64,000 nucleotides of DNA from positions 3,787,001-3,851,000 of the forward strand of contig NW_027288510.1 of assembly GCF_037038585.1 (NCBI RefSeq), given 5' to 3'. The stretch's first letter is position 1; each line of letters opens with the position of its first letter. This document shows positions 22,761 to 60,487 of the stretch, piece after piece. The translations under genes were made by a program, and so were the position numbers. The notes under the pieces were generated by a model. The model saw only the letters and a list, made by a program, of their open reading frames with translations, ran no database searches and was not told the DNA's origin. The stretch is from Patagioenas fasciata (lineage: Eukaryota > Chordata > Aves > Columbiformes > Columbidae).

Positions 22761-22879
22761 ATGCCATGGGTCCCCTCCCAGACACATCGAGGCCTTCTGC
22801 CCATGTGCTCAGCAGTGCCCACTGGGCACTGTATTGCATGCAGGAAGTTATCATCTCACCAATATAATAGGCTCAGGTA

Positions 22880-26378: not shown

Positions 26379-28255
26379 GTAAGTGCAGTTGCTGTCCTGT
26401 GGGACTTGAAGCTTGTCCCGATGCTACAAGAGGCTGCGGAGCTGTGTTCCTCTAGCTCTGGTGGGCAGAATGCAGTCTCCTACCTAAAAATGACACAGCA
26501 CATGTGTGCCCTGAGTAAAGTGGGTGACCTTAGGCCATTCCTTAATTCCTTGTTAGTTTTGGATGGATTCCAGAACCATTGCCCATGGCTTTGAGAAGCT
26601 TAGTTACTTTCCAGCCTCTTGTGGTCAGCGGGGAGGGATGAGTAGTTCCAGATGGATGTGCAGGTTTGGGGTGGGTTGAAACGCCCTCTGGCTGTAGAAG
26701 GGACCAGCTGAAGGGAGCTTTGGGCTTCCGACTTCAGCACTTAAATGACTGATGGTGAGTGCGATGGAGCTGCGCTCATCTTTGGGAGCCTCAGTTCCAC
26801 ACGTGTAAATGTGGGGATTAATGGCACTGTTCCACCACACAGGCAAATTATTTTATTGTACTGAAGCAGGTGGTGGGTAGTTAGTGGGTTACTGGCCCTG
26901 AAGTTAGATCCAGCTTAGCTTGTTGGCCTGTACTGGCATGTCCTCTTAGCTTCTTGATGGTCAGATGCTCAGTATGTGCATGAAGGGTGGCATTTAAAAA
27001 GGTGATAATTGAATCAAACCCAGCTTTGACTTAATTGCTAAAACTGAATTTCCACCAGAGCCAGTTCTGTACCAAGGGGAAGTTGTTCAGATTTAGAAAT
27101 ATTTTCTTCCAACAACGGAGAGACTTTTTTTTCCCCTGAAATCTCATACTTTGAAGCAGTAGATATTACTGCTCAAAGAGCCTTTCAGAGTTTAAGGCTG
27201 ATTAGTAAAATTTGAGAAGGTTCTCAGCAGCCGAATCGAGAGGTTTGGAACACCATAAACTCTTGTAGAACCCCGGTTTGTAACTTGTTGCTGTCCTTCT
27301 TAACACCTGTTCTCCTAAGTACGTACTGAAAGTTTGGTGCCTTGTGGTCTGGTCCATCACACAAGAACTGAAGTAATGACGTAGTGGGAAATGCAAAAAC
27401 AGGGCCTTGAAAAAGTTAATAACTCTTTTGTGCCAAGAAAGCATCAGACCTGTCACTTATGCTCAGCTAAACATCAGCAGCTTTTGATGTTAGATGTGGG
27501 TCGTGTTAACTCCTGACTTCTAGTTAATCTGTGCTTTGAAAGGCAGAGAGAGAAAAGCAGCATTTCCATGGGAAGCTTTAATTTTAACTGTAACCTGCTT
27601 GAAAGGTGCTCAGGTTGTGGGATATTAGGAAATGTCCTGCCAGGTCTGGATGCTGGGGCAGGAGCAGCGACTGAGCTCAGGTGTTGTTTGGTTTATCACG
27701 TGGCTTCAGGAGTGGGGGAGTCTGGCTCCTGGGCTTCATAATGTTTATTGAAATAGTGGTCCAATTTTTCTTGAAATCCTTCCTTACCTTTTGGATTCAT
27801 TCTTGATTATTCCTTCACATTAAATATTCTTGAGTTTTTGAGATCTCCTGATATCCTGTTTGTCCCTACGGGAACACAATTTTCTTCCTGAAATTGAGTG
27901 TGAAAGAAGCTCTGGACTCCGGGAATGCATTTCCATGTGTTACTTTCATTCAATCTTCATAAACTCATAATTTAGCTCACACTCTCTTGTCCAAACCCTT
28001 CTTGTGCAGTGCTGGCTTCAAAGTCAGGTCAGGCTGATCAGCCAAGTTTTGAATGTTTCCATGACTGGAGTTCCCATAACCTCTCCGACCCTTGTCACAC
28101 CACTAAACCCACTCCACGGTGAAGCTGATATATTTTTATTTCAGTTGGAATTTCCCTTCCTGCAGTTTGTTACCTCTTGTCCTTTTGTTATACACCTCCA
28201 AAAAAAATTGGCTCAGTCTTCTCTATAACTCCCTATTAGGTAGTTGGAGACAGAG
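26379..28255 (+). other. Sequence between last dynein exon and the provirus
   Basis: Presumed start of the next DNAH9 intron. No dynein exon, repeat family or RNA gene was recognised. Position 28,256 begins the provirus LTR; the five flanking bases CAGAG have no partner on the far side of the element. Confidence 0.6.
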
Positions 28256-28921
28256 TGTCGAGGGTTAAGATTGCGGGGTGACAATCAAACCCTGGCAGAT
28301 GTATTGTTAACCTCTTCTCCCCCCCACTTCCCCCTTTTGCCCCTCCCTCTCCCCCCTTCCCACTCAGGACAGGCGATCGGGAGGGGAAGAAGGACAGAGA
28401 GAAGGGAGTTGGAAAAGTTCAAGATGTTTTACTAATGCTACTGATAAGAATAGAGAAAATAATACAAAATATACAAAACCAATCTTGTAAGTCTCAGCAA
28501 CTGCAGAGCCAGCACCCAAAGTCCTGGATTAGACTCTGTAGCCAACCGGAGCTGGATTCAGTCTCTCACTGGCCTCCGTTCGCAGGGACGACCAGCAAGG
28601 TCCTCTCCTGATGTCGGCCATGAGGAAAAAAGGGAAAAGGGAAAAGAGACAAAAGGGACGAGATCCTCGTGATCTCCCACTTTTATATGAAGTATTCACG
28701 TGAATGGAATGTTATTCACCGTTGGCCAGTCTCTCGATCACCAGTTTCTCGTTGCCCCTCTCGCGAGATGTCCATCCGTGCTTATCAATAAGTTTGCATT
28801 CCCTTGCTGGGTTTAACCAAAACATGTGTTGGGTTCTCCAGGAAAATGCAGCTGACATGAAGGCTTTAGCTGACAGGCAAATTCACTAAAAGAGAAACTT
28901 GTTTTTAACAAAACCAGGACA
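28256..28921 (-). repeat. Provirus 3' LTR (666 bp, complete)
   Basis: Bounded by TG...CA ends: TGTCGAGGG on the + strand at 28,256 and GGACA at 28,917-28,921. It has a TATA box (reverse complement TATAAAA, 28,681-28,687) with an E-box CACGTG upstream, and a variant AGTAAA poly(A) signal. It is the full-length reference for the truncated 5' LTR. Confidence 0.92.
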
Positions 28922-28932
28922 TTCCACCCCTT
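28922..28932 (-). other. Polypurine tract
   Basis: On the - strand AAGGGGTGGAA directly precedes the TGTCC start of the 3' LTR, as expected for plus-strand priming in retroviral reverse transcription. Confidence 0.8.
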
Positions 28933-29282
28933 ATCATATGACATTCACTGAATACTTAAACCTTATCAATACAATCTATCAATACAATCTAATTAATCAC
29001 TACTACTATATATATATACATATGTACATATATACACAGGAGTAATTAATCAGTGGACCATCCTTTGAAAAGTTCATTAAGTTCATTTTGTCACCACAGT
29101 CTCCCAGGGCAGGGAAAATGGTCCAAGTGCATCTCATGACCCCTGTTGGTGGGTTAAGGACACCAACTGCCAAGAAGGTGTCGGGCGCCACTCGAAGAAG
29201 CCAGCGCTGGTTTCATCACCATTGTCTTGATCTGAAAGACACTTATTAAACATTGTTAGTGCGGCAATTCACATCGTACAGT
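28933..29282 (-). other. Provirus sequence between integrase and polypurine tract
   Basis: About 350 bp, AT-rich near 29,000-29,045 (TATATA-type run). No env-like ORF, signal peptide or transmembrane segment is seen. Confidence 0.6.
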
Positions 29283-30047
29283 TCAGCATTGCACATTTTC
29301 ACCTAAAATCAAATCCCCTTGAGGTGCACACCGAACTTCTCCATCCTTAAGCATCACCCACCAGGTGCTGCCAGGTCCCTGGGCAAAAACAATCCCACGA
29401 ATAGGTTTGCCTGTGCCCGAGGCAGGAGGAACCCAGACTGCCTTTCCTAAGATATTTTTCATGTGTGCTACAGGGACTTTATCTCCTTCTACAGTCCGTG
29501 GAAGTGTAATATAATCAATTTGCCAAGCTTCTCCATACTTATACTTTAACCATCGCCCCCCATACCATACAGGTTTTAACCGTTTCGCTTGTTTGATTTC
29601 GGCGCAAGTTTCACATTCATGAATAACCTGTGAAACAGTGTCCATAGTTAAATCCACCCCTCGATCACGAGCCCATTTGTATGTTGCATCTCTACCTTGA
29701 TGCCCTGAAGCACCATGGGCCCACCGAGCTAGGAAAAGTTCACCTTTATGTTGCCAGCCCAAGTCCACCTCAGCTACTTTAATCTTAGCAGCTTGATCCG
29801 CTTGTTGGTTGTTTCGATGTTCCTCGGTGGCTTGACTTTTAGGCACATGAGCATCTACATGACCAACTTCCCCAGGCAGGCTCTCCAGCCGAGCAGCAAT
29901 GTCTTCCCACAGCGTGGTTCCCAATGGTTTCACCTCTGCGCTGCCAGTTACTTTTCTTCCATTGCCGTAGCCACCCCCACAAGGCATTTGCTCCCATCCA
30001 TGAGTCAGTATAGAGACAAAGCATTGGCCACTTCTCTCGTTCGGCAA
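29283..30047 (-). pseudogene. Provirus RNase H end plus integrase lacking its catalytic core
   Basis: A 254-codon open frame. It begins in out-of-frame sequence, enters the RNase H end (VGHVDAHV), then the integrase zinc domain (HGASGHQGRD, and CETC about 35 residues later). The first core block WQIDYITLP follows, and the frame jumps at once to the C-terminal domain (GTGKPIRGIVFAQGPG). The rest of the DDE core, with the second Asp and the Glu, is absent. The junction is at about 29,495-29,510 and keeps the reading frame. An enzyme from this copy could not integrate DNA. Confidence 0.85.
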
Positions 30048-30255
30048 TGTCCAAAGCCAGCTGGATGGCTTTCACTGCTGCAAACTGACTGGATTCACCT
30101 TGTCCTTCAGTGGCTTCTGTAACTTGTCGTGTGGGACTCCACACAGCAGCTTTCACCTTCGATGTTTTCCTACAGACGACAGGATCCACCTGTGAACAGT
30201 GCACACTGCTTATCAGTCTCTGAAAGCGGATTATATGGTGGTGCTTCTTCAGCAC
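29839..30255 (-). pseudogene. Provirus RNase H fragment, frameshifted
   Basis: Contains LYTDSWMGANALWGWL, an RNase H active-site block (the Asp of TDS), in a frame that then runs out of register and overlaps the next ORF. At least one frameshift therefore separates it from the integrase frame. Confidence 0.75.
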
Positions 30256-30444
30256 GTTTTACTTCCTCCTCATCTGCAGACATCCCAAAGTCTTTGCTTT
30301 CTGGCCAGTCTGTAATCACTTCTAATATCCCTGGACGGTTGGGACTTCCAATCCGAGCTCATTGCGTGATCAGTGCAATCCATTTACTCCATGTAACTTC
30401 GGTGCCATGATGTGGAGAGGGAACCGTCCCTTTGCACACCCAGC

Positions 30445-30801
30445 TCAGCACCGGCAGTCGAGGTGCAGGAGGAGCTGTGCTTCAGTGCCCATCACTTCTG
30501 AAGCAGCTCGAACTCCTTCATATGCTGCCAGTCTCTCCTTTTCAGTTGCAGTACAGTTGGCCTCATATCCTTTGTATCCTCGACTCCAAAAACCTAAGGG
30601 TCGACCTCGGGTTTCTCCTGGTGCTTTCTGCCAGAGGCTCCAGGTAAGTCCATTATCTCCGGCTGCGGTGTAGAGCACATTTTTAACACCTAGTCCAGTT
30701 CGGACTGGTCCAAGGGCCACCGCATGAGTTATCTCACGCTTCATTTGTTCAAAGGCTTGGCGTTCAGGGCCCCACTCAAATTGGTTCTTTTTACGAGTCA
30801 C
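30445..30801 (-). pseudogene. Provirus RT connection and RNase H start
   Basis: Encodes FEWGPERQAFEQMKREITHA, ALGPVRTGLGVKNVLYTAAG and FWSRGYKG, the connection between RT thumb and RNase H in bird ERVL-like Pol. It is interrupted by frame changes on both sides. Confidence 0.8.
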
Positions 30802-31367
30802 TCGATAGAGAGGCTCACAATGTGGCTGTGGTCAGGAATGTGCATTCTCCAAAAACCTGCAACGCCCAAGAAAGTCTGTGTCTCCTTTTTATTAGTAGGT
30901 GGAGACATTGCTGCAATTTTGTTGATCACCTCCATTGGGATCTGACGACGGCCATCTTGCCATTTTATTCCTAAAAATTGGATCTCTCGTGCAGGTCCCT
31001 TGACCTTGCTTGGTTTTATGGGAAAACCAGCATCCAAAAGAATAGGAATTATTCTCTCACCTTTTTTGAAGACTTCTTTCGCTGTGTCGCCCCATACGAT
31101 GATGTCATCAATGTATTGCAAGTGTTCTGGAGCTTCACCTTGCTCCAGCGTGGTCTGGATCAGCCCATGGCAGATGGTAGCACTGTGTTTCCACCCCTGG
31201 GGCAAGCGATTCCACGTGTACTGGATGCCCCTCCAGGTGAAAGCAAACTGCGGCCTGCACTCTGCTGCTGCAGGAATAGAGAAAAATGCATTAGCAATGT
31301 CAATTGTAGCATCGCACTTCACTGCCTTTGACTCCAGTTCAAATTGCAGTTCTAGCATGTCAGGCAC
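30798..31367 (-). pseudogene. Provirus reverse transcriptase palm
   Basis: Encodes an Asp-containing palm motif (DIANAFFSIP), then FTWRGIQYTWNRLPQGWKHS and the catalytic QYIDDIIVWG. FLGIKWQDGRRQIP follows. The catalytic residues are present, but the frame is cut from the N-terminal RT part by a stop and a shift near 31,385-31,440. Confidence 0.88.
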
Positions 31368-31438
31368 AGCAGCATTCAGTGTGCTGTAACTTCATTCAGG
31401 CCACGATAGCCTACAGTTGGTCTCCACTCGTCACCAGA

Positions 31439-32026
31439 CTAACGCACTGGCCAGATTGGGCTGTTAAAAGGTGAGCGAGTCTTACTGATCACACCCTGGC
31501 TTTCCAATTGACGGATCGGCTTCTGGATAGGAATCAAAGAGTCTCGACTGGTGCGATATTGCCGGCGATGCACCGTCGTGGTAGCAATTGGCACCTGCTG
31601 ATCGTCAACCATCAGCAGTCCTACAACAGAGGGGTCATCTGAAAGACCCGGTAGATGAGACAGTTGTTCAATTTTCTCAGTGTCCACATCTGCTATACCA
31701 AATGCCCACCTATACCCTTTTGGGTCCTTAAAATACCCTCTCCTGAGGTGGTCTGTGCCAAGGATGCACGGAGCATCTGGACCAGTCACAATGGGATGCT
31801 TTTGCCAGTTTTTTCCAGTTAGGCTCATTTCAGCCTCTACAACAGTCAGCTCCTGGGATCCCCCAGTCACTCCAACAATATTGATGGATTGCGTTCCTTT
31901 ATAATTAGAAGGAATTATTGTGCACTGAGCACCAGTGTCCACTAAAGCTTTGTACTCCTGGGGTTGTGTTGTACCAGGCCATTGTATTTGTACAGTCCAA
32001 TAGACTCTGTTATCCCTTTCCTCCAC
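31439..32026 (-). pseudogene. Provirus protease and start of RT
   Basis: Aspartic protease motif LVDTGAQCTIIP near residue 29, then CILGTDHLRRGYFKDPKGYR, and the RT entry region GVISKTRSPFNSPIWPVR, after which a stop codon ends the frame. Confidence 0.85.
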
Positions 32027-32047
32027 CTGGTTGGAGGCAGGGCACCT

Positions 32048-32668
32048 CTAATTCCTGTTTTGCACAGTCTCTGGGTGTGAATTAGAGGTTCCTTCAAGAG
32101 CATCAGAATCTCTTCTGCTCCTTTTGTAAACTGGAGCAGCCACCTTCCTAGGAGTTTTTCCTTTTATCTCACGTACTCGTTCCTGAAGTTCTGAGGTCGG
32201 CCTTCCATGCCACTTGTTCATGTTTTCTCCCTGCTCATGTAGGAAGAACCACAGTGAACCTCTTTTTGTGGGCTGCCTCTGCCCTCTCTCTCGAGATTGG
32301 AAACGCCTTCTCCTAACAGCTGAAACATAGGTTTGTGCAGGTCGTGAACGGTACGAGTCTGCTCTGAGCTCTTGGATTTCTTGCAACAGCTTTTCAAACC
32401 GGTCATCAGATTTTTCACACAGTTTCTCCACAGCGGAGACACAAGCCCGTAGAGAACCAGCAAGGCTGTCCTCAAAGTACCGGAGCTGCTCAATCACTTC
32501 ATTAATTTCTTGTGCACCTCTAGCTGACCAGACCATTCCTGCCAATGACTTAGCATATGCAGGTGGTGCACTTTGTACAAATCTGCGCCACATAGATTTT
32601 GTACAATTGATTCTGTCTGGGTCTGTCCCCTCTTGGCTGTTTGGTCCTAGATAGATGATCTCTGGCAC
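32048..32668 (-). pseudogene. Provirus Gag, C-terminal part
   Basis: A 206-codon frame with a capsid-like region (MWRRFVQSAPPAYAKSLAG) and a basic tail (RGSLWFFLHEQGENMNKWHG). No CCHC zinc knuckle is visible; the basic Arg-rich part may serve for RNA binding. It is separated from the upstream Gag block by frameshifts and a stop in 32,670-32,770. Confidence 0.75.
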
Positions 32669-32760
32669 AGCTCATTCTCTCAGGAACTGGATACCTCTCT
32701 CCATAGTATTCCATTTCCCTAACTTGGATATACAATCTTCCTTGTAGGGAAATCTGACTT

Positions 32761-33426
32761 TCATAGCTGCAGGAGTCGGGTCCAGAGAGTAGTGGCATTA
32801 GACTCTCTTGAAATTGCCCTATCAATGGTGGAATCTTTTGACAGAGATCCCAGCTGCCTGGCTTCACCACCTTCTAATTCAGTTGTTTCTGCCCCGTTGT
32901 CCCAGCATCGCAGCAGCCAGGTTAAAATATTCTCGCCTTCACGACGACTGAAGTCTTTTCGCAGATCTCTCAGCTCACCTGGAGAAAAGGACCGAGTGGT
33001 GGTCACTTCATCTCCACCCTGTCCTGGTGATGATGCCTCTTGGGTTGATGTTGGCCCTGTGCCATCACCTGCTGCACGGGTGGTCTTTCTAGTGACTTTC
33101 TTACAACCAGCAACTGATGCTGATATGGGTTCACCATCATCTGATTCATTTCCAGAGTCTGAATGACTGTCACAGTGATTGCTGTGGTTACAGCAGCAAC
33201 AGTGCCCAGTGTGTGAAGGCGGGGGGGCTGCCTTGTCAGCCTTTGAGGCTGGAGAAGTAACGTTATCTGCAGCGCCCTTGGCAGAGGAGCAATGCGGAGG
33301 AGCTGGAGCTTCAGCCTGCGAAGCCGCGGTTGGGGGGCAGTGGCTGCAGCAGCAGCTTTGGCTGTTTTGCCTTTTCTCGAGCGGCCAGGAGTGCTTTTTG
33401 CTAAAGCTTCCGAAGGCGCACCGCAA
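32761..33426 (-). pseudogene. Provirus Gag, N-terminal capsid part
   Basis: A 221-codon frame. The first half is Cys/Ser/Pro/His-rich linker. From about residue 144 it reads FSPGELRDLRKDFSRREGEN and LTWLLRCWDNGAE, a capsid-like block. It ends at a premature stop (LWTRLLQL). It overlaps the membrane-type ORF in a different frame. Confidence 0.78.
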
Positions 33427-33917
33427 ATCTCAGGACTAAAAAGAGACGCAAACCTCCTATTGAACCTCATTTCTCTTAACAGTAACACAAACTGACACAC
33501 ATTCAGCAAACCAGATAACACCATCACAGTTCTATCAAAGCTCCAAGGGTATTCAAAGTTCTCTAACACATTTGCAAACTGTCCCAGCGAAATCACAAAA
33601 GTATTGTTAGTCAGCCTTTCTAAAGATTCGCTTGACCAATTAGCAAATATAGAGCCATTCTGCTCTTTAATCTCTCCTGGAGGTTTTTCAAGGTAAAGCA
33701 GAAGCGAGTAGAAATTCATTAGCGGCTGCAGTGTAATGAAATAAACCAGTGCCATACCACACAGAATCATCATGACCGCTGTCCAGTTTCTTGTTGTTAT
33801 ATAATGAATACTTCGATTCAGAACGAAACACCAACACAGATATGGGATCAGCGAGCACAATGTAGAAAATAACTGATACAACTCATGCCACAACATCTTT
33901 AAATCGATGTAATTCAC
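33003..33917 (-). CDS. Membrane-type ORF in front of Gag (304 codons)
   Basis: The first ORF after the primer binding site. Residues 1-75 hold two or three hydrophobic segments (for example LCSLIPYLCWCFVLN and AVMMILCGMALVYFITLQPL). An Asn-rich segment with NWSSES and NNTF glycosylation sites follows, then a hydrophobic stretch (MVLSGLLNVCQFVLLL) near residue 135. Beyond about residue 165 it is Ala/Lys/Arg-rich and overlaps the Gag linker frame. The real product may end earlier or continue into Gag by a shift. It has no myristoylation start. Function unknown; it could replace Gag membrane targeting or act as an Env-like or leader protein. Confidence 0.6.
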   Translation of the reverse strand: MNYIDLKMLWHELYQLFSTLCSLIPYLCWCFVLNRSIHYITTRNWTAVMMILCGMALVYFITLQPLMNFYSLLLYLEKPPGEIKEQNGSIFANWSSESLERLTNNTFVISLGQFANVLENFEYPWSFDRTVMVLSGLLNVCQFVLLLREMRFNRRFASLFSPEICGAPSEALAKSTPGRSRKGKTAKAAAAATAPQPRLRRLKLQLLRIAPLPRALQITLLLQPQRLTRQPPRLHTLGTVAAVTTAITVTVIQTLEMNQMMVNPYQHQLLVVRKSLERPPVQQVMAQGQHQPKRHHHQDRVEMK

Positions 33918-34062
33918 TTTGCCTTAATACCACTAAATAATATCCGAATCAAACAGACGCGCGAGTATCACAACTCTATGAGTTGGCACCGTGCCAAGAA
34001 AATTGGAAGGTACGTCAGAGCAGGAGAAAAGCCAAAAATCTCCAAATTTACCCCTTTCTCTT

Positions 34063-34080
34063 GCCCCATGTTGGACACCA
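34063..34080 (-). other. Primer binding site (tRNA-Lys-like)
   Basis: The - strand reads TGGTGTCCAACATGGGGC, 6 nt inside the 5' LTR edge. This resembles the tRNA-Lys1,2 primer site TGGCGCCCAACGTGGGGC with three differences. The assignment rests on this similarity alone. Confidence 0.6.
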
Positions 34081-34086
34081 ATTATA

Positions 34087-34595
34087 TGTCGAGGGTTAGG
34101 ATTGCGGGGTGACAATCAAACCCTGGCAGATGTGTTGTCAACCTCCTCTCCCCCCCACTTCCCCCTTTTTCCCCTCCCTCTCCCCCCTTCCCACTCAGGG
34201 CAGGTGATCGGGAGGGAAAGAAGGACAGAGAGAAGAGAGTTGGAAAAGTTCAAGATATTTTACTGATGCTACTGATAAGAATAGAGAAAATAATACAAAA
34301 TATACAAAACCAATCTTGTAAGTCTCAGCAACTGCAGAGCCAGCACCCAAAGTCCTGGATTAGGCTCTGTAGCCAACCGGAGCTGGGTTCAGTCTCTCAC
34401 TGGCCTCCGTTCGCAGGGACGACCAGCAAGGTCCTCTCCTGATGTCGGCCATGAGGAAAAAGGGAAAAAGGAACGAGATCCTCGTGATCTCCCACTTTTC
34501 TATGAAGTATTCACGTGAACGGAATGTTATTCACCGTTGGTCAGTCTCTCAGTCATCAGTTTTCTCGTTGCCCCTCTCGCGAGATGTCCATCCGT
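34087..34595 (-). repeat. Provirus 5' LTR, outer part missing
   Basis: Begins at TGTCGAGGG (34,087) and matches the 3' LTR to about 34,595 (CATCCGTGCTTA), then stops matching. About 125-155 bp of outer LTR (U3 start) and any target duplication are gone. Its TATA region reads TTCATAGAAAAG instead of TATAAAA (about 34,497-34,505), so the promoter is also damaged. Confidence 0.88.
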
Positions 34596-35727
34596 GCTTA
34601 GCAGAACTGTCGCAAAACAGATGTTGGTCTGCAGTAATACTGACAAGCTTTGGACCTTTAATCTTGGAAAGGAGGTGAGGGTCAAGGGAAGGTAAAGGAA
34701 GATGTAGAGAGGTATTAGGTTTTCTTTCCTGATCGCAAAACCTACTTTTTCCATTCTGAAAATCTCAGTATTGTGTATGTAGAACTGTAAGATCTACCTG
34801 AGGATGAAATCTCGGGCTGGGAGGTAAGCGCTGTGTGCTTACCAGTACTTACAGGGCATGGTTCTCACTTTTTTGGGGAGAAAAAACATTAAAAAACAGA
34901 ACAAAACACACCACTAAATTAAAAAAGTAAGCCACTGGGTGCAATAAACTGGGTCTGCCTTTCACTCCAATACTGGGTGTCGAGTGGGAGCCTTGTGCTC
35001 GTTCTTCTGCCAGCTTGGTACGGAGATGGAGAGCTCTGCAGATGTTCCTGTTTTGGGGGACCCTTGGTAATGTGGTGTGGGTCCATCTTCAATGTGCCCA
35101 TTGAAAAATCAGTGGTGCTGGGCACCTAAATTTGAGCTGATTCTGCTCTTTGAAGAACCTGTCCATTTTTCATGAGCAGAGCCAAGAATATTTCTAAACA
35201 CCAGTGTTCCTTCCCAGTGGCTTACTCACTTTCATTGATCTTGAACAGCTGCATTAGCTGGAGTCTCAATCAGCATTGGTGGGAACAAACTATCCCCTCA
35301 GAAATTACAGCGCTGATGTAGTTAATTCTTTGTTTGAGCAAATTGATTTCAGAGGCTCGTCACAGCCCTGATCCTGCGCGTATGGGATTTCCTGGGCTTT
35401 CCTTATGGGAATTGTTTCCTGGAAGCCAAGTCTGCTTGGAAATATTGACAAGGCCAGATGCAGATGTTTTTTTGTTGTTTTGTGGTTTTTTTTATTGCTT
35501 CTAAAGCTTTGTCTGCAACAGGGTGACCGTGGGGAGAACTAAAGTAAGATTAAGAGAGAACTTGGGGCTGGAGCAGTCAGAACCTCTGCTGCACTGTAAG
35601 ACAATTCCCCTCACACAGATGCCAAAGAAGCTGTTACATGGGGATTTTTAACTATGGGCATGAGAGAACCATAAGCAGCCTCAGCCTGATGGATTTTCTG
35701 GGGAGATGTTGTTTCCCTTGTTGTGTC

Positions 35728-35930
35728 ATAAAATCACAGAACAGTTTGGGTTGAAGGGACCTCCCCAGCTCCCCCAGTGCCCCCCCTGCCATGACAGGGA
35801 CATCTTCACCAGCTCAGGTTGCTCAGAGCCCGTCCAGCCTGGCCTGGGATGTCTCCAGGGATGGTTCAGCCACCACCTCTCTGGCCAGGCTCTCACTACC
35901 CTTGGTGTAAAAACAAATTTCTTCCCCATG
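35728..35930 (-). repeat. CR1 LINE fragment, reverse orientation
   Basis: AAATCACAGAACAGTTTGGG start, then CCATGACAGGGACATCTTCA and the CTCTCACTACCCTTGGTGTA block. Confidence 0.82.
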
Positions 35931-36571
35931 TCTGGTTTGAGGTTGTGTGGAAAGAGCCAAGATCCTGGTGTGTTTCAACGTATGTATGCAATAATGTACA
36001 TCTGTGAATCATTCCCTTGGCCTTGGAAGATCATTGAAGGCTTTAAAATCGCTGCTGCTGCCAGCAAAATGCATTATCCACAAGCTGCTGAAGGGCATAG
36101 GGAAAAAGTCAGAGAAGAGACCTATTTGTTGCATTCCTGGGCTGCGAGGTCCTGTTTTTGTCCAGCTGCCCAGCCGGGAGTGTTGCTGCTCTTGTTACTG
36201 GTTCCACACTCCCACACAACTCCTGCCACTGCTCGGGGCTCAGACCATCTCTGCACAGGAGCTGACGTCTGGGGGACCAAGGTAAAGTGGTTAAAAAATA
36301 AGGTACTTCCAAAAGTCTGTCCTGAATTATGGAAACCCTAGAACAAATGCCAAGTCCCCATGAAGCCAAAAAGTCTTACGCGTACATTCAGATTTTTAGC
36401 AAGTTGATTAAATGCTTAAACAATATTTGAACTCGGGCCTGAAGGATCAGGCTTTATTAATTGTGTGAGTATAATTGTGGTAAAATAAGTGGTGGCAAGG
36501 AAGGTTTAAATCTGCTCACAGGCGCTGAACTGCGTTGTTGTGAGATAGCTCGGTGACATCTCGTGATGCGT

Positions 36572-36852
36572 TATAGAATCATATAGGTTGGAAACGAGCT
36601 TTAATATAATTGAATCCAACTGTTAACCCAACACTGCTGAGTCCACCACTGAACCAGGTCCCTAAGCACCACACCTACGTGTGTTCTAAACCCCTCCAGG
36701 GATGGTGACTCCACCACTGCCCTGGGCAGCCGTTCCAATGCTCAACAGCCCCTTTAGTGAAGAAACCTTTCCTTTCAGGCAGTTCAGAGATCAGAAGGTC
36801 TCCCCTCAGCTCCTGTTCTCCAGCTGAACCCCCAGGTCCTCAGCTGCTCCCA
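36572..36852 (-). repeat. CR1 LINE fragment, reverse orientation
   Basis: TATAGAATCATATAGGTTGG start, then CTCCAGGGATGGTGACTCCA and CAGTTCAGAGATCAGAAGGT, shared with the copy at 19.6 kb. Confidence 0.85.
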
Positions 36853-39800
36853 TCACACTTGTGCTCCAGCCCCTCACCAGCTTTGTTATCCCCTGATCTG
36901 TTGGTATCTGCAGGATTTGAGGTGTCAAGTCCCAGATTAATGCATGCAAGGTAGGACAGGCACACACACAAATATCTACAAAGCAACAGAGTGTTTCTAA
37001 TTAAAAGAAAATTGTTAATTAGTTGAGCCTCCTTGGTCAGTGCTGGGTGAGCAAGAGCCTCATACCTGCCTGTTGCTGCAGGAGTGCTTGAAAAAATACA
37101 ATGAACCCTGCTTGGTTTGCAGAATTTTGGGAAAGGTGCTGAGCTGGAGAACATAAGTCATGAATAGTAGCAATGCCACTTGTTATTGTGTGGTAAAGAA
37201 GGACGTTTTCACAGCTGGAATAAACCACCAGAATTTGGGAAATCTGGGTATACTGCCCAGCTGGGTGCTGAACAGCTCTTCACTTGTGCATCAAGCCACG
37301 GGGTGAGTAGTGTGTTCTGTTTCTTGGCAGGAAGGTGATGGAGCCAGACCTACAAAAGCTTTGTCTTAAGCCATTGTGATAGTACAGCTGCTTTTTTGGT
37401 CGCTCTCCGCTGCCTTGGCAGACTCCCTCTCGCTGGATTTTAAAAGTGTTTTGCCTCTGTCGTGTTTTGAATTTTGTTTTCCCTTTAGGATCCATACCTT
37501 CTCTTCTAGGCTCTCCCAGCCGCAGTGTTTCCCAGTCAAGCTAATTCATCACTGATTCACAGTGGAAACTGCCAGTTTGGTGGGGTTTATGTTTTGAGTT
37601 AGTTTTCTAAGTCTGGCAGCATCCAAACACAAAGACAGGGAGAAATGACTCGTCTGTTACTTAATTTAATGCTTGTTTTGGGAAATCTAAATCCAAATGT
37701 GTATGGGACTCATATTAGGACTCCAGTGCTGGATTTTATTTTTCTTTTTGCCATTGTTGGCAGGGCCGAATTCACCTCCAGAATAAGCGCAGTCATCGGT
37801 CTGTGTGACACTAAGCTCGGTTCTCTGCTTGGACCAGACGGCGTTTGGAGCTGCCCAAAGTGACTGAAAGCTGAAGTGGGCTTTTGCTGCAGCATCTAAA
37901 TGATTCTGAGGGCTCTAGCGACCCTTACAAAGCCAAAAGTACCTTGCTATCTTCTTTAGTCTCTCACAAACATGCTGAGTCCTGCTTTAGAGGGCTGAGC
38001 TCTCCGGAAACATCGGGTGGGACCAGCTTTGGCTGTAGCCCTCATAGCAAGAGTGGGGGACACAGCTCTGACTCAAAGACCAAGCCATTTGGTGACAGTG
38101 ACAGAACCTTTTTGTCTCCTAGACTTCTCTGGAGATCCCAGACTGGCCAGATTCCCCATGAGGGTTTATGCTTGTGTGAGGAAACTTCTTAGAAATAGCT
38201 GTAGAATTCAGCCTTTTTTAGTAGGCTGGAAGGTGGCAGCTCAATTGACCTTGCCAAACTTTAACCAACAGTAAGAGAGCAGGGCCCGAGCTGCCATAGC
38301 CTGTGAGTCTGTATTATTTCTAATAAAAGAGGAAAGATGGGGCTCTGCAGGTGATCTCCTTCCTATTCTGTCTTGCTCCTTCAAACATGTGAGGGCACGG
38401 AGGGGTTCAAGGTCCAACCTGAGTATTTGGGTATCTCTGGCATGCAGAGATATGCTTCCTCCATCGCTGTTTCTTTTGAGACATAGAGTCTCTCTGAATG
38501 CTTTATTGCTGCTCTGCTTTGTGGAGGACGGCCAAGGGGAGCTACTGGTGCTTTTGTCACCAGTTTCTGTGCTATGGTTGTTAGGAGTGGTCTGCTAACA
38601 GGCTTTCCATTGACTTTGGGCTTCGCTTTGGACGAGGCTCCGCAGATTTAGGGCACGTGGCCAACTTATGGCTCTTGTTTCAGTGGAACTCAATCTTGGA
38701 CTACATCCCATAGCAAGCCTGGTGGGTAAACTGGATCTCTGGCTGCAAGCGGAGAAAAAGCAAGAGGGATGGCTGAACTGGATATCTGTGGCTTTTCCTG
38801 GGACTTGGTTACGTGCCCAGCTCAGTCCTGCAGCAACCCTGGAAAGCCAAGGATGTCCTCCTCCTGGGAGCCGTTCTCAATGCAGCCCCAGCCGTCAGCA
38901 GCACCCTGACCATCGTCATCCATGTACGTGCTTGGCAGGGCGATGGGAAGGGGCCGCTTGGACCGGAGGGGCTGAATTTGGCTCTCGTAGCAATCAAGGA
39001 TTTGGGAGCAGATGACTCAGACAGTGCTGATCCATTCTCTGTGTACATTTTTTTGCTGTGTTATGTTACACTGGGATGGGGGCAGAACCCATTGCCCTCC
39101 TCAAGCCTTTACAGTCTTTGAAACATCATCAGGATGGGAAAGGATCCTCTAAGGAACTTCAATTTTCCATAGAATCATAGAAACTGCCTCCAGTTCTGGC
39201 TCTGCTTTGCAGGACGCACTTCTTGAATGTGAAGTGCTTACATCTCTTCAAAGCCCTTTCTCCCTGCCTGTTTGCCAAAGGGAAGAATTGATAAATGTTA
39301 AATTCAGTAGCAAAATCACCGCAGGCCCCTGGCCATAGAGTTTCCCACAATTTGTGTTACGAGGTGACCCAGATTCTGACGAACCAGAGGCACACAGGGT
39401 TGGTTTTGTCCTGTAGTACTTTTCCTATACAGATGGTGAAGGTGATTTTTTTCCCTTTGCCCTAGTGCCTGAGGTAAATAAACTGTAAATAGCTTGGGAG
39501 AGCAGGCTGGGATGTGGAGGAGTAAAAAAGGGTGATTTTGATTCTCAAGGGTGTGGAGGAAAACAGGAGGAGAACCATCGAAGCCTAAATTAACTCCCTC
39601 TTGCAAACACAGTTTGATCAGACATTATCAGGCTAAATATATGAGCAGTCTGTAAAAGGAGCAGTTTTCCTCCGGTGCTACTGCTCACATGTTACTCAAT
39701 TAAAACAGTAGGAGCTTAATGTTGCGCTTACTTTTCCGCTATTAGCGGTACTTGTGTTTTTTTGGGAGGGGGCTACTTTACTGAACATGGCCAATGAGGG

Positions 39801-41714
39801 TTTGTGTCCATGGTAAGACTTCTGCTTAAAGCCAAAGTAAATATTGAGGTGGTTATAGTTATACCGACATAAGCCCCTATATGAACATTCTTGCTCAAGC
39901 TTTTCTAAAATTTAACTTCTATTTATTGGAAATAGGTTTAAATCTGAATGGAAAAAGTTGCCGTGTTACTGGAATAGGTGTGTCCATCTGTAGAGCTGTT
40001 CCAGTTTAATTTATTAAGCTTTATCTTCAGAAAAGAGTGGCGGGAATTTAATATATATTTCGTTGTTGTTTCTTCCTTGTCACTCCCCCAACCTTAACTG
40101 GTTGTGTCGCACAGGCTGTAGGTTGTAAATCTTGCAGGAGACCTTTTTTCTTTAAATTTTAGCCTTTGTTAATCAGCTCTTGAACATGAAGTTGCCTCCC
40201 TTTTAGTGCAAAGGTTGTGGGTCTAACTGGTCTCTTTTGAGGGAATCCTGCTGTTGAAGCCGCCTCCCCCAATAACTGGTTGCAGGCGGAGTGTGTTGGC
40301 TTTGGCTTGAGAGGTGCCTGCAGGGAATCTCCTGAACTTCATCAGGTCCTGCACCTGGGGTGGAAGAACCCTTCACAGGGATGTAGGCTGGGGACTAACT
40401 AATCCACTCCAAAAATGTGATTTACCTCACCTATCAGGAGCATTTCCCAAGGGGAGTCAGCACGGGATGCTGCCAGCAGTGTCCTCCATGTGGTGCTTTC
40501 TTACCCTTGGTTTATCACACCTACGGTCTCATCCCATGGCCTCGTCTCACTGTACCAGCCCTGTCACAAGCGTTGACAACTCCATCCCTGCATCTCAACC
40601 CTTCCTGACTGTCCTCACCCAGGGAAAGGACGCTCAGTTTGCCAGAAACAAGGAGATGTGCACCATGGACAACAGACCACCAGTGACGGTGGTGACATCT
40701 GCAGCAGAAATGCCCTTATGAGTCTCCAAAATGGATTTAGAATCCAAGTGGTCCATCCGAGTTAGAACAATGAAGTTTTAACTGTCTGCTCAGCTTCTTG
40801 ACATCCTACAAACTATTACAGAATGTGTACGATGGGGCCTGTCCTGATGTTCCTCTTACGGCTTGAGGAGCTCTCACTGCCAGTGGGAAGTCCTGCTCAT
40901 ATTTTTATTTGCCTGTTTTTTCCTGTGCGGGGGTTGTTATTTCAAAAAAGGGAGGAAAAAAAGAAGTGTCTGTTTTTCCATACAGTGATAACGCAAATAC
41001 CATAGCTGCTATTTTTTTTCCGGGGGGATAGGTGGACTGGTTCAGATATTAAAATAGGAGTAAGCGCAGATTTTGTTTGATCTTAAATGTTAATTGTTCA
41101 GAGACTAATAGTGATAATTACTTTTCAGAATAGCTTGAGTCATTTGTTGGGTTTTTTTTTAAATTGTGTTGTTTTTGAGGCTCCAAGCTGGAAAAACAAA
41201 GGTTTGCCAATGTGCTGGTCGTAGGGCAAGTTTCGTCCAGGGTGTGACAAATTTTACTGCCTTTGAGAACTCTTGGGCTTAGAAATGCTGCTGGGTGGAT
41301 GGTCCTGGAGACTTGAGTTAGGTATTTGCGCCAGTTTTGTCTCATCAATGTCCTTGTTAAAGGTCTACTGGGCTGTGAATTTACCTTTTAAATAACACCA
41401 CCATTACAGCTTGGGCAGTAAAATGCCGTTTTTCTTCTGGCAGTTTCCTTGTGGGTAGATGTAGAGATTCCTGTGTCTCACGTCTGTCTGGGGGTTGTCA
41501 GGTGTTGGGGTCTTCTGGGGTGGGTTGTGTGAAGAGCATGCTGCCCTACCAGGAGCAGGATGGAGAACCCCGGGTGTATGGGATCTGGTTGTCCCCACTG
41601 ATCTTACACAAGGATAGAAGGTCTGGGATGGGGCCTGATGAGAGAAACAGGCATGTACACCAGACTCTAGGATTTGTAGGCTTACTTTAAGGGTTTGCAA
41701 GATCTTTAAGACTG

Positions 41715-41921
41715 GCCTGGGCCTGGCAAAGAGGTGGTAAAACACCAGCCAGAGAGGTGGTGGATGAACCATCCCTGGAGACATCCCAGGCCAGGCTGGA
41801 CGGGGCTCTGAGCACCCTGAGCTGGTGAAGATGTCCCTGTCATGGCAGGGGGGAACTGGGGGAGCTTTGAAGGTCCCTTCCAACCCAAACTGTGATTCTG
41901 TGGTGTAAGATGGACTCTGAC
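41715..41921 (+). repeat. CR1 LINE 3' fragment
   Basis: Sense copy of the 35.7-kb subfamily, ending AACCCAAACTGTGATTCTGTG. The 281-codon - strand ORF over 41,404-42,249 is readthrough of this element and flanking sequence. Confidence 0.82.
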
Positions 41922-43628
41922 ATTCTTCAGGAAGGCCACCATCATCTTTGCTTGGTTTGCATGACACGTACTTGCAGTGTGGTCCTGCTGTGTGGCAGGA
42001 GCTTCCTGGTGCCACTGCAGCTCCAGCAATGACAATGAACAACAAAACCATTTTCACAGTTCTTTGGTATTTTAGGAATTTTGGAGCTGTTGACTGTGCA
42101 GCTGGCGTGTGGGAGGAAAGCTGAACGAGAGCAGTGAAATGCGCAAGGGCAGCAGGAAGCCCAAGCAAGTGTATTAGAGCAGGGACTGGGGTGGAGTCTG
42201 CGATCTGTGAAATACATGGAGCAAGTTGGACACCAGTCTGTTCTGCCAAGTCAACACTGATGGTTTAGTTCAGTTAAACATCCTCGCGAAGCTGGATTTG
42301 CAGTGCAGTCCAACCCAGGGTCTGGGTCAAAAGCAAACCCCGAAGTTATGACGAAACCCAGCCTTGCTCTGGCATAGGAGAGCAGCTAATAGCAAAGAAA
42401 TCAACCCTCATTCACTAGCTGAACTTCCCTTATTTATTGCTTTGCTGGACAGGAATAAATACTCAACAAATAAGCTTCCTGTCCTTAAATTATTGCATTC
42501 TTCTGCGTTCTTGATTCCTTTTATTTTTAAATTAAACCAGGCTAAACCCCACGGGATTGATGTCCTCTCATTGCATGAGCTAGAAAGGGTTCATGGTCTG
42601 ATTCTCGTCTGGAGGATCACACGATGACTTGGGGTGGAGGTATTTTCCTGAAATAGTTTGGAGCAGCTCTAGGGTTTGGGATGTGCTCCCTTTCTCCCTT
42701 CAGTGTCTCCCCTCCCTCCTTTCTTCCCTCCCAGCTACAGGGATCTCTGACTTCAAGTAGGATGGAGGATGCTGTGGGAGATGCCTTTGGGTCTCTGGAG
42801 CTGGGGGACAAGAGAGGCGATTAAGAGCAGCTGACAGGGGCTTAGCACAGCCTTCCAGCCCCCTCCCCTTGGGGATGTGTTCCATACCCTCTTTGCTGTC
42901 TCTCCACGAGACCTTTTGGGAGTATTTCTACTCCCAGAGGAATTTAAAGGTGTAAATTCTCAGTGGAGCTGTGGCTGCACAGGTTGTGTCCTGCCATGGG
43001 GCTGTGCTGCCGTTTGCCCAGGGAAAAATGAGCAGCCCTTTGGCTGGAGGGAATTTTCGGTGGGATCCACCATGGCCAGGTGTCGGATCCGCAAAGTCGT
43101 GGTCCCGGGGAAGCGCAGGCTGGGAATGAGGAGCCGGGCTGTGCCGATGAGCTCCTGGCTTCTTTGGGAGCGTTTCCATGTGATTCCCATCAGGAACATG
43201 GATCTGTGCGTCCTGTTCCAGTTTGTGCAGCTGCACAGCTCAACCCCAAGGAGGAAAAAAAACCAACATTCTTCAGATGCTGCTTTTGGGGAGGGTGGGG
43301 GAAGGAGCAGGCGGGTTCCTTCCACCCCGTTGTTTGAGACTGAGCGCTGTTGCAGCGTTTTAAGAGAGCCCAGCATCTGCACAAAGCTCCTCTGTGTGTT
43401 TTTACAAACTTAGAACCTCCATGTGAGGAAACAGCAGCCGTCTCTGAGCCCCAGCCTTTTCAGCTTAAACACAGAGTATGGGGACAATACAGCAAGCAGA
43501 ACAAAATCCCCGTGCCTCTAGAGGTAGGATCTTCACAGCTATAATAACTTACCTGCGGCCATTCATGTGGTGGTGGCCTGTCGTGTCTTTCCCAGTGGGT
43601 GAACTGGACATTTAAACGGACGTGGCTG

Positions 43629-43775
43629 GAATCATAGAACCGTTTTGGTTGGAGAAGATGTTTAAGATCATCAAGTCCAACCGTTGACCTCACACTGCCA
43701 AGTCCACCTCTAATCCACGTCCCCGAGAGCCTCATCTATGCGTCTTTTAAACCTTCCCAGGGATGGTGACAGTTG
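43629..43775 (-). repeat. CR1 LINE fragment, reverse orientation
   Basis: GAATCATAGAACCGTTTTGG then ATCATCAAGTCCAACCGTTG; about 330 bp upstream of COLGALT2 exon 2. Confidence 0.82.
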
Positions 43776-44109
43776 GCAAGGAGAATTCACCGTGTGGTCA
43801 TTAAGAACAGAATTCAGTCCTGTACCTGCTTGATGCTAAAGCTGCTGTGGTCTCGATGAGGCAGGAGGAGATGAGCAGAGGGGAGAGATGTGCAAGGATG
43901 CCCGCGTTCTGGCTTTGTGGGGAATCTGGGCTTTGCTCTGTGCTTAAACAAGGACTTGCACCTCTGTGGAGCTGCCCCGAGTTCTTCCAGGAACTGGATG
44001 TGCCTGTAATAAATAGCTCGTGCCTCTGTTTGACTCAATTGCTGGCTGGGAAAAAGCGAAGGACCTAAACCGTGTGTTAATGGGGCTCTTTGTGCTCTCA
44101 TTTTTCCAG

Positions 44110-44220
44110 GGTGGCCACTGCCCGCAATGTTGACAGCACCACAGCAATGCTTAGAGAGTGGCTGAAGAACGTGCAGAACCTCTACCACGGTGTGGAGTGG
44201 AGACCGATGGAAGAGCCCCG
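44110..44220 (+). pseudogene. COLGALT2: COLGALT2 exon 2
   Basis: Acceptor ttccag, donor CCCCG|gtgagc. It reads [20 protein letters not shown] and VEWRPMEEP. The family-conserved TDHN is replaced by TARN (Asp to Ala, His to Arg). It starts with the last base of an expected Trp codon whose first part would be in the missing exon 1. Confidence 0.9.
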
Positions 44221-45461: not shown

Positions 45462-45579
45462 GTCTTACCCAGAAGAATTTGGGCCAAAACATTGGCCAAG
45501 CTCCCGATTCACTCACGTGACGAAACTCCGACCGGCAGCCCTGCGTGCTGCACGAGAGAAGGGGTCAGACCACATCCTG
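45462..45579 (+). pseudogene. COLGALT2: COLGALT2 exon 3, acceptor AG changed to AC
   Basis: The coding match starts at GTCTTACCC (SYPEEFGPKHWPSSRFTHV) and ends DHIL|gtaagt. The two bases before it, after a good T-rich tract, are AC (45,460-45,461) instead of AG. An upstream gcag ending at 45,434 would add 27 nt in frame (HFLLVFFAT), so this lesion might be bypassed. Confidence 0.85.
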
Positions 45580-46256: not shown

Positions 46257-46391
46257 TTTATTGATACAGATAACTCACTGACCAACCCAGAAACCCTGAC
46301 CCTGTTGATAGCAGAAAACAAGACCTTGGTGGCACCAATGCTCGAGTCTCGCTCTCTCTACTCAAATTTCTGGTGTGGCATCACCCCCCAG
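46257..46391 (+). pseudogene. COLGALT2: COLGALT2 exon 4 (DxD exon), acceptor AG changed to AA, GC donor
   Basis: Reads [20 protein letters not shown] and FWCGITPQ. The DxD metal-binding motif (DTD) is intact. The expected acceptor is AA (46,255-46,256) after a fine pyrimidine tract. The codon just before is TAA in frame, so any upstream acceptor keeps a stop. The nearest AG (46,269) skips the DxD and shifts frame. The donor is CAG|gcaagt, a GC site with otherwise perfect consensus. Confidence 0.85.
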
Positions 46392-49784: not shown

Positions 49785-49989
49785 GGCTATTACAAAAGGA
49801 CCCTGGATTACCCCCCGATCCGGGAATGGAAGAGGACAGGCTGGTTTGCTGTCCCCATGATTCATTCCACCTTCCTCATCGACTTGAGGAAAGAAACCTC
49901 CACCAAGCTGATGTTCTACCCCCCGCATCAGGACTACACCTGGAGCTTTGACGATATCATGGTCTTTGCCTTCTCCAGTCGCCAGGCAG
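49785..49989 (+). pseudogene. COLGALT2: COLGALT2 exon 5
   Basis: Acceptor ttgcag, donor GCAG|gtgtgt. It encodes [20 protein letters not shown], then [15 protein letters not shown] and [20 protein letters not shown]. Intact frame; a usually conserved Cys is Trp (GWFAVPM). Confidence 0.92.
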
Positions 49990-53858: not shown

Positions 53859-53978
53859 GTATACAGATGTTCATCTGCAACCGTGAACACTATGGTTTCC
53901 TTCCCATGCCCCTGAAATCGCACCAGACGCTGCAAGAAGAAACCGAGAACTTTGTGCACACCCTCATTGAGGCAATGA
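53859..53978 (+). pseudogene. COLGALT2: COLGALT2 exon 6
   Basis: Acceptor ccccag, donor ATGA|gtaagt. It encodes IQMFICNREHYGFLPMPLKS and FVHTLIEAM in an open frame. Confidence 0.92.
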
Positions 53979-54429: not shown

Positions 54430-54506
54430 TTGATCGTCCTCCCGTTGAACCCTCACAGTTTGTCTCTGTTCCGCCAAAGAACCCTGACAAGATGGGATTT
54501 GATGAA
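54430..54506 (+). pseudogene. COLGALT2: COLGALT2 exon 7
   Basis: Acceptor ttccag, donor GATGAA|gtaagg. It encodes DRPPVEPSQFVSVPPKNPDK and MGFDE. Intact. Confidence 0.92.
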
Positions 54507-56415: not shown

Positions 56416-56522
56416 ATTTTCATGATCAACCTGAAGCGCCGGAAGGACAGGCGGGATCGGGTGCTGCGGACTCTCTATGAGCAGGAGATTGCAGTCAAGA
56501 TAGCAGAGGCCGTGGATGGGAA
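56416..56522 (+). pseudogene. COLGALT2: COLGALT2 exon 8
   Basis: Acceptor acccag, donor GGGAA|gtgagt. It encodes [20 protein letters not shown] and EAVDG, the start of the second GT25 domain. Intact. Confidence 0.93.
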
Positions 56523-57514: not shown

Positions 57515-57634
57515 AGCGCTGAACACGAGTCGGCTCAAAGCTCTCAGCATCGACACCGGGACCCGTGCTCCTCGCGGCCCCTCACCCGGGGAGAGATCGG
57601 CTGCTTCCTCAGCCACTGCTGCATCTGGGAGGAG
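57515..57634 (+). pseudogene. COLGALT2: COLGALT2 exon 9 with 13-bp frameshifting deletion
   Basis: Reads [13 protein letters not shown] in the correct frame to 57,554, then two bases, then [20 protein letters not shown] from 57,557 in another frame. The family has a conserved MLPGY-type segment between them; the exon is 13 nt shorter than expected. Splice sites (tctcag; GAGGAG|gtgagg) are good. As read, the frame stays wrong to the exon end. Confidence 0.88.
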
Positions 57635-58811: not shown

Positions 58812-58921
58812 GTGGTGAACAGAGAACTGGAGAAGACGCTTGTTATTGAGGACGAGTTCAAGAGGAAGCTCATGAAGCTGATGGATGACATTGAACAAGC
58901 CCAGCTAGACTGGGAGCTGAT
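58812..58921 (+). pseudogene. COLGALT2: COLGALT2 exon 10 with 18-bp deletion of the EDD motif
   Basis: Encodes VNRELEKTLVIED followed directly by EFKRKLMKLMDDIEQAQLDW. The family has six more residues here (an EDDVRFE-type acidic motif thought to bind metal or donor). The deletion keeps the frame and lies at about 58,853-58,857. Splice sites are normal. Confidence 0.88.
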
Positions 58922-59400: not shown

Positions 59401-59607
59401 CTACATTGGCCGGAAAAGGATGCAGGTGCAGGAGCCTGAGAAAGCAGTTCCCAACATCATGAACCTGGTGGAAGCCGATTACTCGTACTGGACCCTGGGC
59501 TACGCGATCTCCTTCCAGGGGGCTCAGAAGCTCATCGGAGCGGAGCCTTTCGGCAAGATGTTGCCGGTGGATGAATTTCTGCCAGTCATGTACAACAAGC
59601 ACCCGGT
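59401..59607 (+). pseudogene. COLGALT2: COLGALT2 exon 11
   Basis: Acceptor cctttaag, donor CCGGT|gtgagt. It encodes [40 protein letters not shown] and [17 protein letters not shown]. Intact and well conserved. Confidence 0.93.
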
Positions 59608-60212: not shown

Positions 60213-60487
60213 AGCAAAGTACATGGAGCACTACAAGTCCAGAGACTTGAAAGCCTTTTCAGCAGAACCCCTGCTCGTCTACCCCACGCACTACACAGGG
60301 CAGCCCGGCTACCTTAGCGACACAGAGACCTCCACCACCTGGGACAACGAGACCGTGTCGACGGACTGGGGCAGAACGCACTCCTGGAAATCCGGCAGCA
60401 GGGCACGATCCGCAGCGACGCCAGAACAAGGACGCTCTGCCCTCGCAGTCGTCTCTGGATGCGCCGTCCTCCAGGGACGAGCTGTGA
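60213..60487 (+). pseudogene. COLGALT2: COLGALT2 exon 12 with two single-base frameshifts before RDEL
   Basis: Acceptor ctctttag. The frame reads KYMEHYKSRDLKAFSAEPLL and TETSTTWDNETVSTDWGRTH. Homology then moves to a second frame at about 60,391-60,394 and to a third at about 60,421-60,424, where it ends SSLDAPSSRDEL and a stop at 60,485-60,487. RDEL is the usual ER-retention end of this enzyme. As read, the first frame would run to 60,630 and lose RDEL. Each shift fits loss of one base in a short C or G run. Confidence 0.88.

Follow-up and report, generated by a model that had tools for sequence, protein, structure and literature searches.

The 64,000-nucleotide stretch of Patagioenas fasciata DNA analysed here (the window) raises the question of how a piece of DNAH9, a cilia motor gene, came to lie beside a piece of COLGALT2, a collagen-enzyme gene. 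The window is probably a block of mosaic interchromosomal segmental duplication, which would be made of non-working gene pieces from different chromosomes.

Gene pieces and repeats in the window

The DNAH9-like part occupies positions 1 to 26,378 on the + strand; it begins inside AAA1, downstream of Walker A, and runs to where the AAA3 exon ends. It is composed of 14 exons, the first of them partial (1-81), followed by those at 2730-2887, 3192-3330, 4535-4822, 5298-5508, 7779-7906, 8385-8493, 9175-9322, 10591-10765, 13722-13895, 15279-15486, 20109-20274, 24793-24895, and 26139-26378 (the AAA3 end). Once joined, they give 776 codons with no stop, and AG or GT is present at every border seen, the 5' border of the first exon being outside the window. 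Human DNAH9 is the top match among solved structures (1271.5 bits vs 1168.7 for DNAH17, which was rejected for this reason as the identity of the dynein); 640 window residues align to DNAH9 2045-2687 and every exon of that span is present. Both AAA3-end exons are found at a single place each within the 64-kb window.

Queries covering human DNAH9 from residue 2688 to about 3640 and the dynein C-terminus only gave matches of E 0.7 or worse in the window, while a control peptide recovered the AAA3-end exon (4e-37). The tail of a P. fasciata DNAH9-like protein (1799 residues past AAA3), compared by tblastn with the window up to position 64,000, gave nothing at E≤1. Neither search revealed an AAA4 exon in 26.4-64 kb. 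The first-pass annotation, which had described 14 clean dynein exons that end after AAA3 with a strong donor and no dynein exon in the following 37.6 kb, is borne out on both points; AAA4 exons between 26.4 and 44 kb, which it had named as contrary evidence, were searched for and none was found.

Reading through the donor into the intron after AAA3 (26379..26594, + strand) gives 71 codons and a stop. This stretch is the tail of the P. fasciata DNAH9-like isoform X4 (P0243, 6.37-Mb contig), with 71/71 residues identical, and the corresponding tail of P0306 also equals the window (40/40). The identical P0243 tail does not prove a shared copy end, because longer isoforms are possible and the parent gene should carry the same intron. 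Judging from the isoform numbers X4, X7, and X2, these loci probably have additional models, so that the end points of the other copies may differ from that of the window.

The DNAH9 and COLGALT2 pieces meet within an interval without assigned strand (26595..44109), located between the shared intron stretch and COLGALT2 exon 2, the lower bound of which assumes that the shared stretch is DNAH9 intron. An endogenous retrovirus (ERV) of 6.3 kb lies inside this interval on the - strand (28256..34603). Its LTRs (28256-28787 and 34087-34603, - strand) align with 495 matches, 21 mismatches, and 17 gap columns, a divergence of 4%. Protease, RT, and RNase H matches are present in separate pieces, integrase being below the Pfam cut-off. 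Although the LTR ends are clean, there is no target-site duplication, the flanks being GACAGAG before and GAACTGTCG after the element. The ERV may mark the junction or, alternatively, an assembly join.

COLGALT2 exons 2-12 span 44,110-60,487 on the + strand, each at one place within the 64 kb, where no second COLGALT2 copy was found. Exon 2 (44110..44220) has AG/GT borders, exon 3 (45462..45579) shows AC where the acceptor AG is expected, and exon 4 (46257..46391) has AA as acceptor and GC as donor. They are followed by exons 5 (49785..49989), 6 (53859..53978), 7 (54430..54506), and 8 (56416..56522). Exon 9 (57515..57634) carries a 13-bp loss, and hence a frameshift, after LSID, and exon 10 (58812..58921) has lost 18 bp, in frame, across EDDVRFEHQ, both sizes being estimated against the P. 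fasciata protein. Exon 11 (59401..59607) precedes exon 12, which includes the stop (60213..60487) and has two single-base losses near its end. The lesions of the copy are thus two lost splice acceptors, deletions of 13 and 18 bp, and the two single-base losses of exon 12, which may reflect misread runs of C.

The best match to COLGALT2 exon 1 in the window (E 0.007) is on the - strand at 2302-2379, where the sequence is rich in leucine and proline, and is read as chance; no convincing exon 1 was found elsewhere in the window. COLGALT1 is the best match among solved structures but was discarded as the identity of this piece, since the protein search ranks bird COLGALT2 first. Downstream, on the - strand, are the last exon of RGL1 (63628..63746), with GG as acceptor when the phase that preserves the expected residue is chosen, and part of the penultimate exon, encoding the RA domain (63930..64000); the RGL1 sequence thus extends up to the window end (64,000). 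Joined in the expected phase, the two exons match RGL/RGL1 best (3.4e-19, 3.9e-19), before RALGDS (5.6e-15) and RGL2 (1.2e-8). In human, the 3' ends of COLGALT2 and RGL1 face each other, and the same gene order is present in the window piece. The protein-versus-window search agrees with the first reading of this segment as COLGALT2 exons 2-12 and an RGL1 tail lacking exon 1.

With respect to other features, a 39-bp minisatellite and an AT-rich array are present in the window. Neither the Columba/Streptopelia 28-mer described in PMC10849363 nor double telomere repeats have an exact match in it, and it contains no tRNA gene and no Rfam family at gathering score.

Relatives and unequal decay of the two pieces

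Over its 776 residues, the DNAH9 part differs at 10 positions from a P. fasciata DNAH9-like protein (98.7% protein identity), at 11 from P. fasciata DNAH9, and at 12 from the Columba livia protein. Eight of its residues are absent from all 13 DNAH9 proteins tabulated, which were drawn from 120 listed matches and represent seven species, with several isoforms of one gene. Because of these eight unusual substitutions, the DNAH9 part is considered a copy and not a normal gene; its earlier description as intact holds for reading frame and splice sites only. Four of the eight recur in partial P. fasciata DNAH9-like proteins on other contigs: H43 is present in all three dispersed copies, R157 and C237 in the copy on the 11.5-Mb contig, and V682 in that on the 6.37-Mb contig. 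Of two sets of 120 matches listed, the first includes at least seven rows for P. fasciata DNAH9 and DNAH9-like proteins, all on the 15.7-Mb contig, and the second at least five for partial DNAH9-like proteins on the 11.5-, 8.38-, and 6.37-Mb contigs. This distribution indicates that the DNAH9 part would itself be one of several dispersed DNAH9-like copies.

All comparisons between copies are at the protein level. Leaving out an exon skip, the window and the 6.37-Mb copy show 8 differences in 749 residues, a number compatible with allelic variation, in which case the window would be an allele of the 6.37-Mb locus. The relationships among copies are in conflict, since R157 and C237 are shared with one P. 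fasciata copy and V682 with another, a pattern that would need conversion between copies or recurrent change. R255 is the sole remaining Patagioenas mark in the DNAH9 part; V107 was withdrawn as such because the king vulture protein P0275 has it as well. The partial DNAH9 proteins of Columba guinea have a few residues in common that neither the DNAH9 of this species nor the P. fasciata copies possess.

The closest relative of the COLGALT2 copy is the full-length P. fasciata protein (92%, the best of 120 matches listed). Five residues of the copy are common to this protein only when eight other birds are compared, and in the same comparison there are no sites at which P. fasciata COLGALT2 is derived and the window ancestral. 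The copy differs from the P. fasciata protein at 27 of the 527 residues compared (500/527 being the same), and the two pieces have decayed unequally (8/776 changed residues for DNAH9 vs 27/527 for COLGALT2; Fisher p = 1.2e-5). Simulated neutral divergences matching these counts are near 0.004 for DNAH9 and 0.025 for COLGALT2, rough values obtained with one transition bias and without CpG effect. On these figures the apparent age of the COLGALT2-RGL1 piece is about five times that of the DNAH9 piece, a contrast that would shrink if the DNAH9 copy was constrained during part of its history.

Origin of the block and rival explanations

The proposed mosaic duplication has a direct basis in the gene identities, the lesions, the pigeon affinity of the pieces (to Patagioenas or a near relative), and the dispersed DNAH9-like protein models; we infer from them the order of events, the common block, the joining mechanism, and the lack of function. 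The COLGALT2-RGL1 piece, from COLGALT2 intron 1 to beyond the facing 3' ends, would have been copied as DNA, introns included, and would then have decayed as a pseudogene. Later, the DNAH9 piece, which starts outside the window and stops within the intron that follows AAA3, would have been copied and ended up beside it, while partial copies of the same DNAH9 family would have been dispersed on several further contigs. Between 26,595 and 44,109, where they would meet, the pieces may plausibly have been joined by recombination of ERV copies with one another. Segmental duplication, already put forward in the first-pass annotation, is the best-supported reading; that annotation took DNAH9 for a resident intact gene and COLGALT2-RGL1 for the sole intruder, whereas the sequence indicates that the DNAH9 part would be a dispersed copy too.

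An erroneous junction, created if the assembler joined a real DNAH9-like copy and a real COLGALT2-like copy at the ERV or another repeat, is unlikely. Repeats of the size of this ERV are classic misjoin points, and its flanks do not match despite the clean LTR ends. However, with 4% divergence between its LTRs the ERV is an imperfect repeat, the window contains no N characters, and neither side is a parental gene, the erroneous joining of two rare copies being less likely than that of parents. It also seems improbable that the COLGALT2-RGL1 piece was inserted in an intron of DNAH9, or of a DNAH9-like gene, continuing beyond the window: 37.6 kb are devoid of DNAH9 exons, the RGL1 side still continues at the window end, and there are changes at positions where the 13 tabulated proteins agree, even though the donor of the last DNAH9 exon is good, the frame is open, and the P. 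fasciata DNAH9-like models on the 15.7-Mb contig reach the same C-terminus as DNAH9.

To our knowledge, germline-restricted chromosomes in birds are known from songbirds only. A location of the block on such a chromosome, or on a sex-limited or B chromosome, where copied genes decay, would fit copied and decaying autosomal genes accompanied by an ERV and satellites, and the chicken W, likened to dot chromosomes, carries multicopy genes according to PMC9974502; we nevertheless hold it to be improbable, because DNAH9-like models on three further large contigs cannot all be explained by one such chromosome. A translocation or fusion that broke resident DNAH9 and COLGALT2 and placed them side by side, the alternative offered earlier, is very improbable: the ancestral gene order inside the COLGALT2-RGL1 piece agrees with it, but full-length P. 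fasciata models of both genes exist and the two sides decayed unequally. According to PMC12470241, FISH in pigeon did not find interchromosomal rearrangement, and therefore copying is favoured over translocation. A retrocopy (processed pseudogene) was rejected, the exons of both genes being still separated by introns.

Comparison with known duplication systems

The usual view of bird genomes is that they are compact and contain few duplications between chromosomes. No paper on DNAH9 duplication in birds was found among the matches listed from the open-access literature. Segmental duplications are defined in PMC2566985 as sequences of 1 kb or more with over 90% identity found at more than one site. 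The DNAH9 piece is over 26 kb long and the COLGALT2-RGL1 piece about 20 kb, exceeding the length of 1 kb, and DNAH9-family sequence exists at more than one genomic site in P. fasciata according to protein records. The adjacent pieces also have parents on different contigs, full-length COLGALT2 being on a 56.1-Mb and DNAH9 on a 15.7-Mb P. fasciata contig (contigs, not named chromosomes), as expected for a mosaic block.

The closest known systems are the human pericentromeric and subtelomeric mosaic duplications, such as the CHEK2 duplicon (PMC2566985) and the subtelomeric duplicons (PMC2323237). As in them, gene pieces from different chromosomes abut, introns are kept, and several sites and a varying extent are found; unlike them, the present case belongs to the pigeon lineage and its junction is known from one locus. 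The amplicons of chicken dot-chromosome pericentromeric heterochromatin (PMC9974502) may be comparable as duplicated bird genes on small chromosomes near satellite DNA, but they are many-copy, chromosome-specific, and mostly testis-biased, whereas in pigeon gene fragments are spread over contigs. Like the LCR16a/NPIP core duplicons of primates (PMC7419210), the DNAH9 middle would recur at several loci, beside a lineage-specific piece, and in more than one genus, since C. guinea has partial copies as well as P. fasciata; in contrast, one block has been seen as DNA, and a separate expansion is hinted at by a few residues shared among the C. guinea copies.

The mosaic block would be a new example, from a bird, of a type of structure already known, and this reading would explain several pigeon gene models called 'DNAH9-like' as gene fragments. 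The bolder reading is that of a recurrently spreading DNAH9 core. It is conceivable, though rather doubtful, that the DNAH9 middle is a pigeon core duplicon, copied repeatedly onto several chromosomes, in two genera or more, with ERV-mediated recombination adding neighbouring lineage-specific pieces (COLGALT2-RGL1 among them), as happened with LCR16a in primates. A two-source pigeon mosaic block whose core piece is found on several 6- to 12-Mb contigs would be the bird counterpart of the primate duplication blocks.

The DNAH9 part and its dispersed relatives

The window is bird DNA. Its DNAH9 part (1-26,378, + strand) consists of 14 exons encoding 776 residues with no stop, all exon borders inside the window are AG/GT, and the top-scoring solved structure is human DNAH9. 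The first-pass annotation, correct on its main points, had described these exons as clean and ending after AAA3, with no later dynein exon in the next 37.6 kb; searches with human DNAH9, a dynein C-terminus and the whole tail of the P. fasciata DNAH9-like protein indeed found no further dynein exon there. It had named hidden AAA4 exons as a refuting observation, and none was found in these searches from 26,379 to the window end. A 39-bp GC-rich minisatellite (21129-22761; 41.8 copies, 95% matches), open in all three forward frames, is situated within a DNAH9 intron.

In protein identity, the DNAH9 part reaches 98.7% against P. fasciata DNAH9-like and 98.45% against the Columba livia protein. 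Among 13 proteins tabulated, V107 and R255 are shared with P. fasciata only, V107 being present also in the king vulture protein P0275. Eight residues are absent from all 13 proteins, which agree with one another at seven of these positions (the exception is position 43, with S in Nipponia). Partial DNAH9-like P. fasciata proteins from other contigs carry four of these residues: all three dispersed copies have H43, the 11.5-Mb copy has R157 and C237, and the 6.37-Mb copy has V682. N284 is kept in the window and in all three dispersed copies, and I741 in the window and in both dispersed copies covering that position; both residues are changed in the DNAH9 and DNAH9-like proteins of the 15.7-Mb contig. 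The shared unusual residues and the retained N284 and I741 therefore group the window with the dispersed copies.

These dispersed copies are known here from protein records and the lengths of their contigs, among 120 matches listed per search. One search found at least seven P. fasciata DNAH9 or DNAH9-like proteins (seven among the 120 matches listed), all on a contig of 15,748,126 bases. DNAH9-like X12 (2848 residues) lacks the first 1638 residues of DNAH9 X6 and differs from it at 8 of 2739 aligned residues. A further search found at least five DNAH9-like models (five among the 120 matches listed), two on the 11,505,769-base contig, two on the 6,372,645-base contig and one on the 8,380,529-base contig. 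The intron read-through ends of two P. fasciata models are identical to the window sequence (71/71 and 40/40 residues), which shows that the introns are homologous and is no proof that those copies stop there.

P0278 and P0347, partial DNAH9 proteins of Columba guinea from other contigs, share residues absent from its DNAH9, including Q-to-K and N-to-D replacements near the second P-loop, so that parts of DNAH9 seem to have been copied in Columba as well, possibly as a separate duplication. P0275 (Sarcoramphus papa) is a DNAH9-like model of 928 residues; the annotation may have split a gene here, or this may be one more partial copy. No report of DNAH9 duplication in birds was found among the matches listed in the open-access literature.

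The COLGALT2-RGL1 piece

COLGALT2 exons 2 to 12 with their introns (44,110-60,487) and the last two RGL1 exons (63,628-64,000, minus strand) follow DNAH9, as originally proposed, with their 3' ends facing each other. Between these ends there is an AT-rich array (61770-63630) with periods of about 106 and 211 bp; GC is 0.297 at 62001-64000 vs 0.44-0.59 in the other 2-kb steps.

The best COLGALT2 match is that of P. fasciata, first among 120 matches listed, which include no COLGALT2 of any other pigeon. Five residues are common to the copy and P. fasciata and are found in none of eight other birds compared; no site in the opposite sense was found in that comparison. The copy differs from the P. 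fasciata protein at 27 of 527 compared residues, and at 24 of these the other birds compared have the P. fasciata residue. The COLGALT2 and DNAH9 comparisons point to a pigeon as the source, probably one on or close to the Patagioenas branch. Judging from these comparisons and from the lesions given below, both the DNAH9 and the COLGALT2-RGL1 sides of the window are copies.

The COLGALT2 copy is degenerate in its splice sites (acceptors AC in exon 3 and AA in exon 4, donor GC in exon 4) and, against the P. fasciata protein, has lost 13 bp in exon 9, 18 bp in exon 10 and two single bases in C runs of exon 12. The exon 12 losses might be sequencing errors; the remaining lesions are not of that kind. 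The last RGL1 exon has GG where the phase calls for AG.

The join interval and relative ages

DNAH9 and COLGALT2 are joined between 26,595 and 44,109, an interval that contains an ERV (28,256-34,603, minus strand). Eight pieces of it were compared with Pfam: three, of 306, 222 and 207 codons, had no matching family, and the others hit models of protease, reverse transcriptase, RNase H and integrase, with the last two pieces scoring under the Pfam cut-off. The LTR ends are clean and no target-site duplication is present at the ERV ends. Such absence is expected after recombination between ERVs, loss of ERV-adjacent sequence, or the joining of contigs at an ERV by the assembler, and the ERV may reflect any of these here. 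An inverted repeat pair about 6 kb apart (35745-35900 and 41733-41888), which we take to resemble CR1 ends, is located between the ERV and COLGALT2 exon 2.

The two sides differ in their number of changes (8/776 for DNAH9 vs 27/527 for COLGALT2; Fisher p = 1.2e-5), which in a simulation correspond to about 0.004 and 0.025 of neutral divergence; the two LTRs of the ERV show 21 mismatches over 516 aligned bases, about 0.02 per LTR. In line with a two-step build-up, the copying of COLGALT2-RGL1 would lie about five to six times further back than that of DNAH9 if neither has been constrained since then; the contrast would be weaker if the DNAH9 copy had been constrained or converted from its parent.

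Function and comparison with known duplications

The pieces are most likely inactive as genes, because no part of the DNAH9 piece follows AAA3 inside the window, its read-on ending after 71 intron codons, and the COLGALT2 piece is not normally spliceable or translatable. The window would instead record copying between chromosomes. It is alike in kind to the mosaic segmental duplications of primates and unlike the amplicons of chicken dot chromosomes, which are described as chromosome-specific and of high copy number (PMC9974502).
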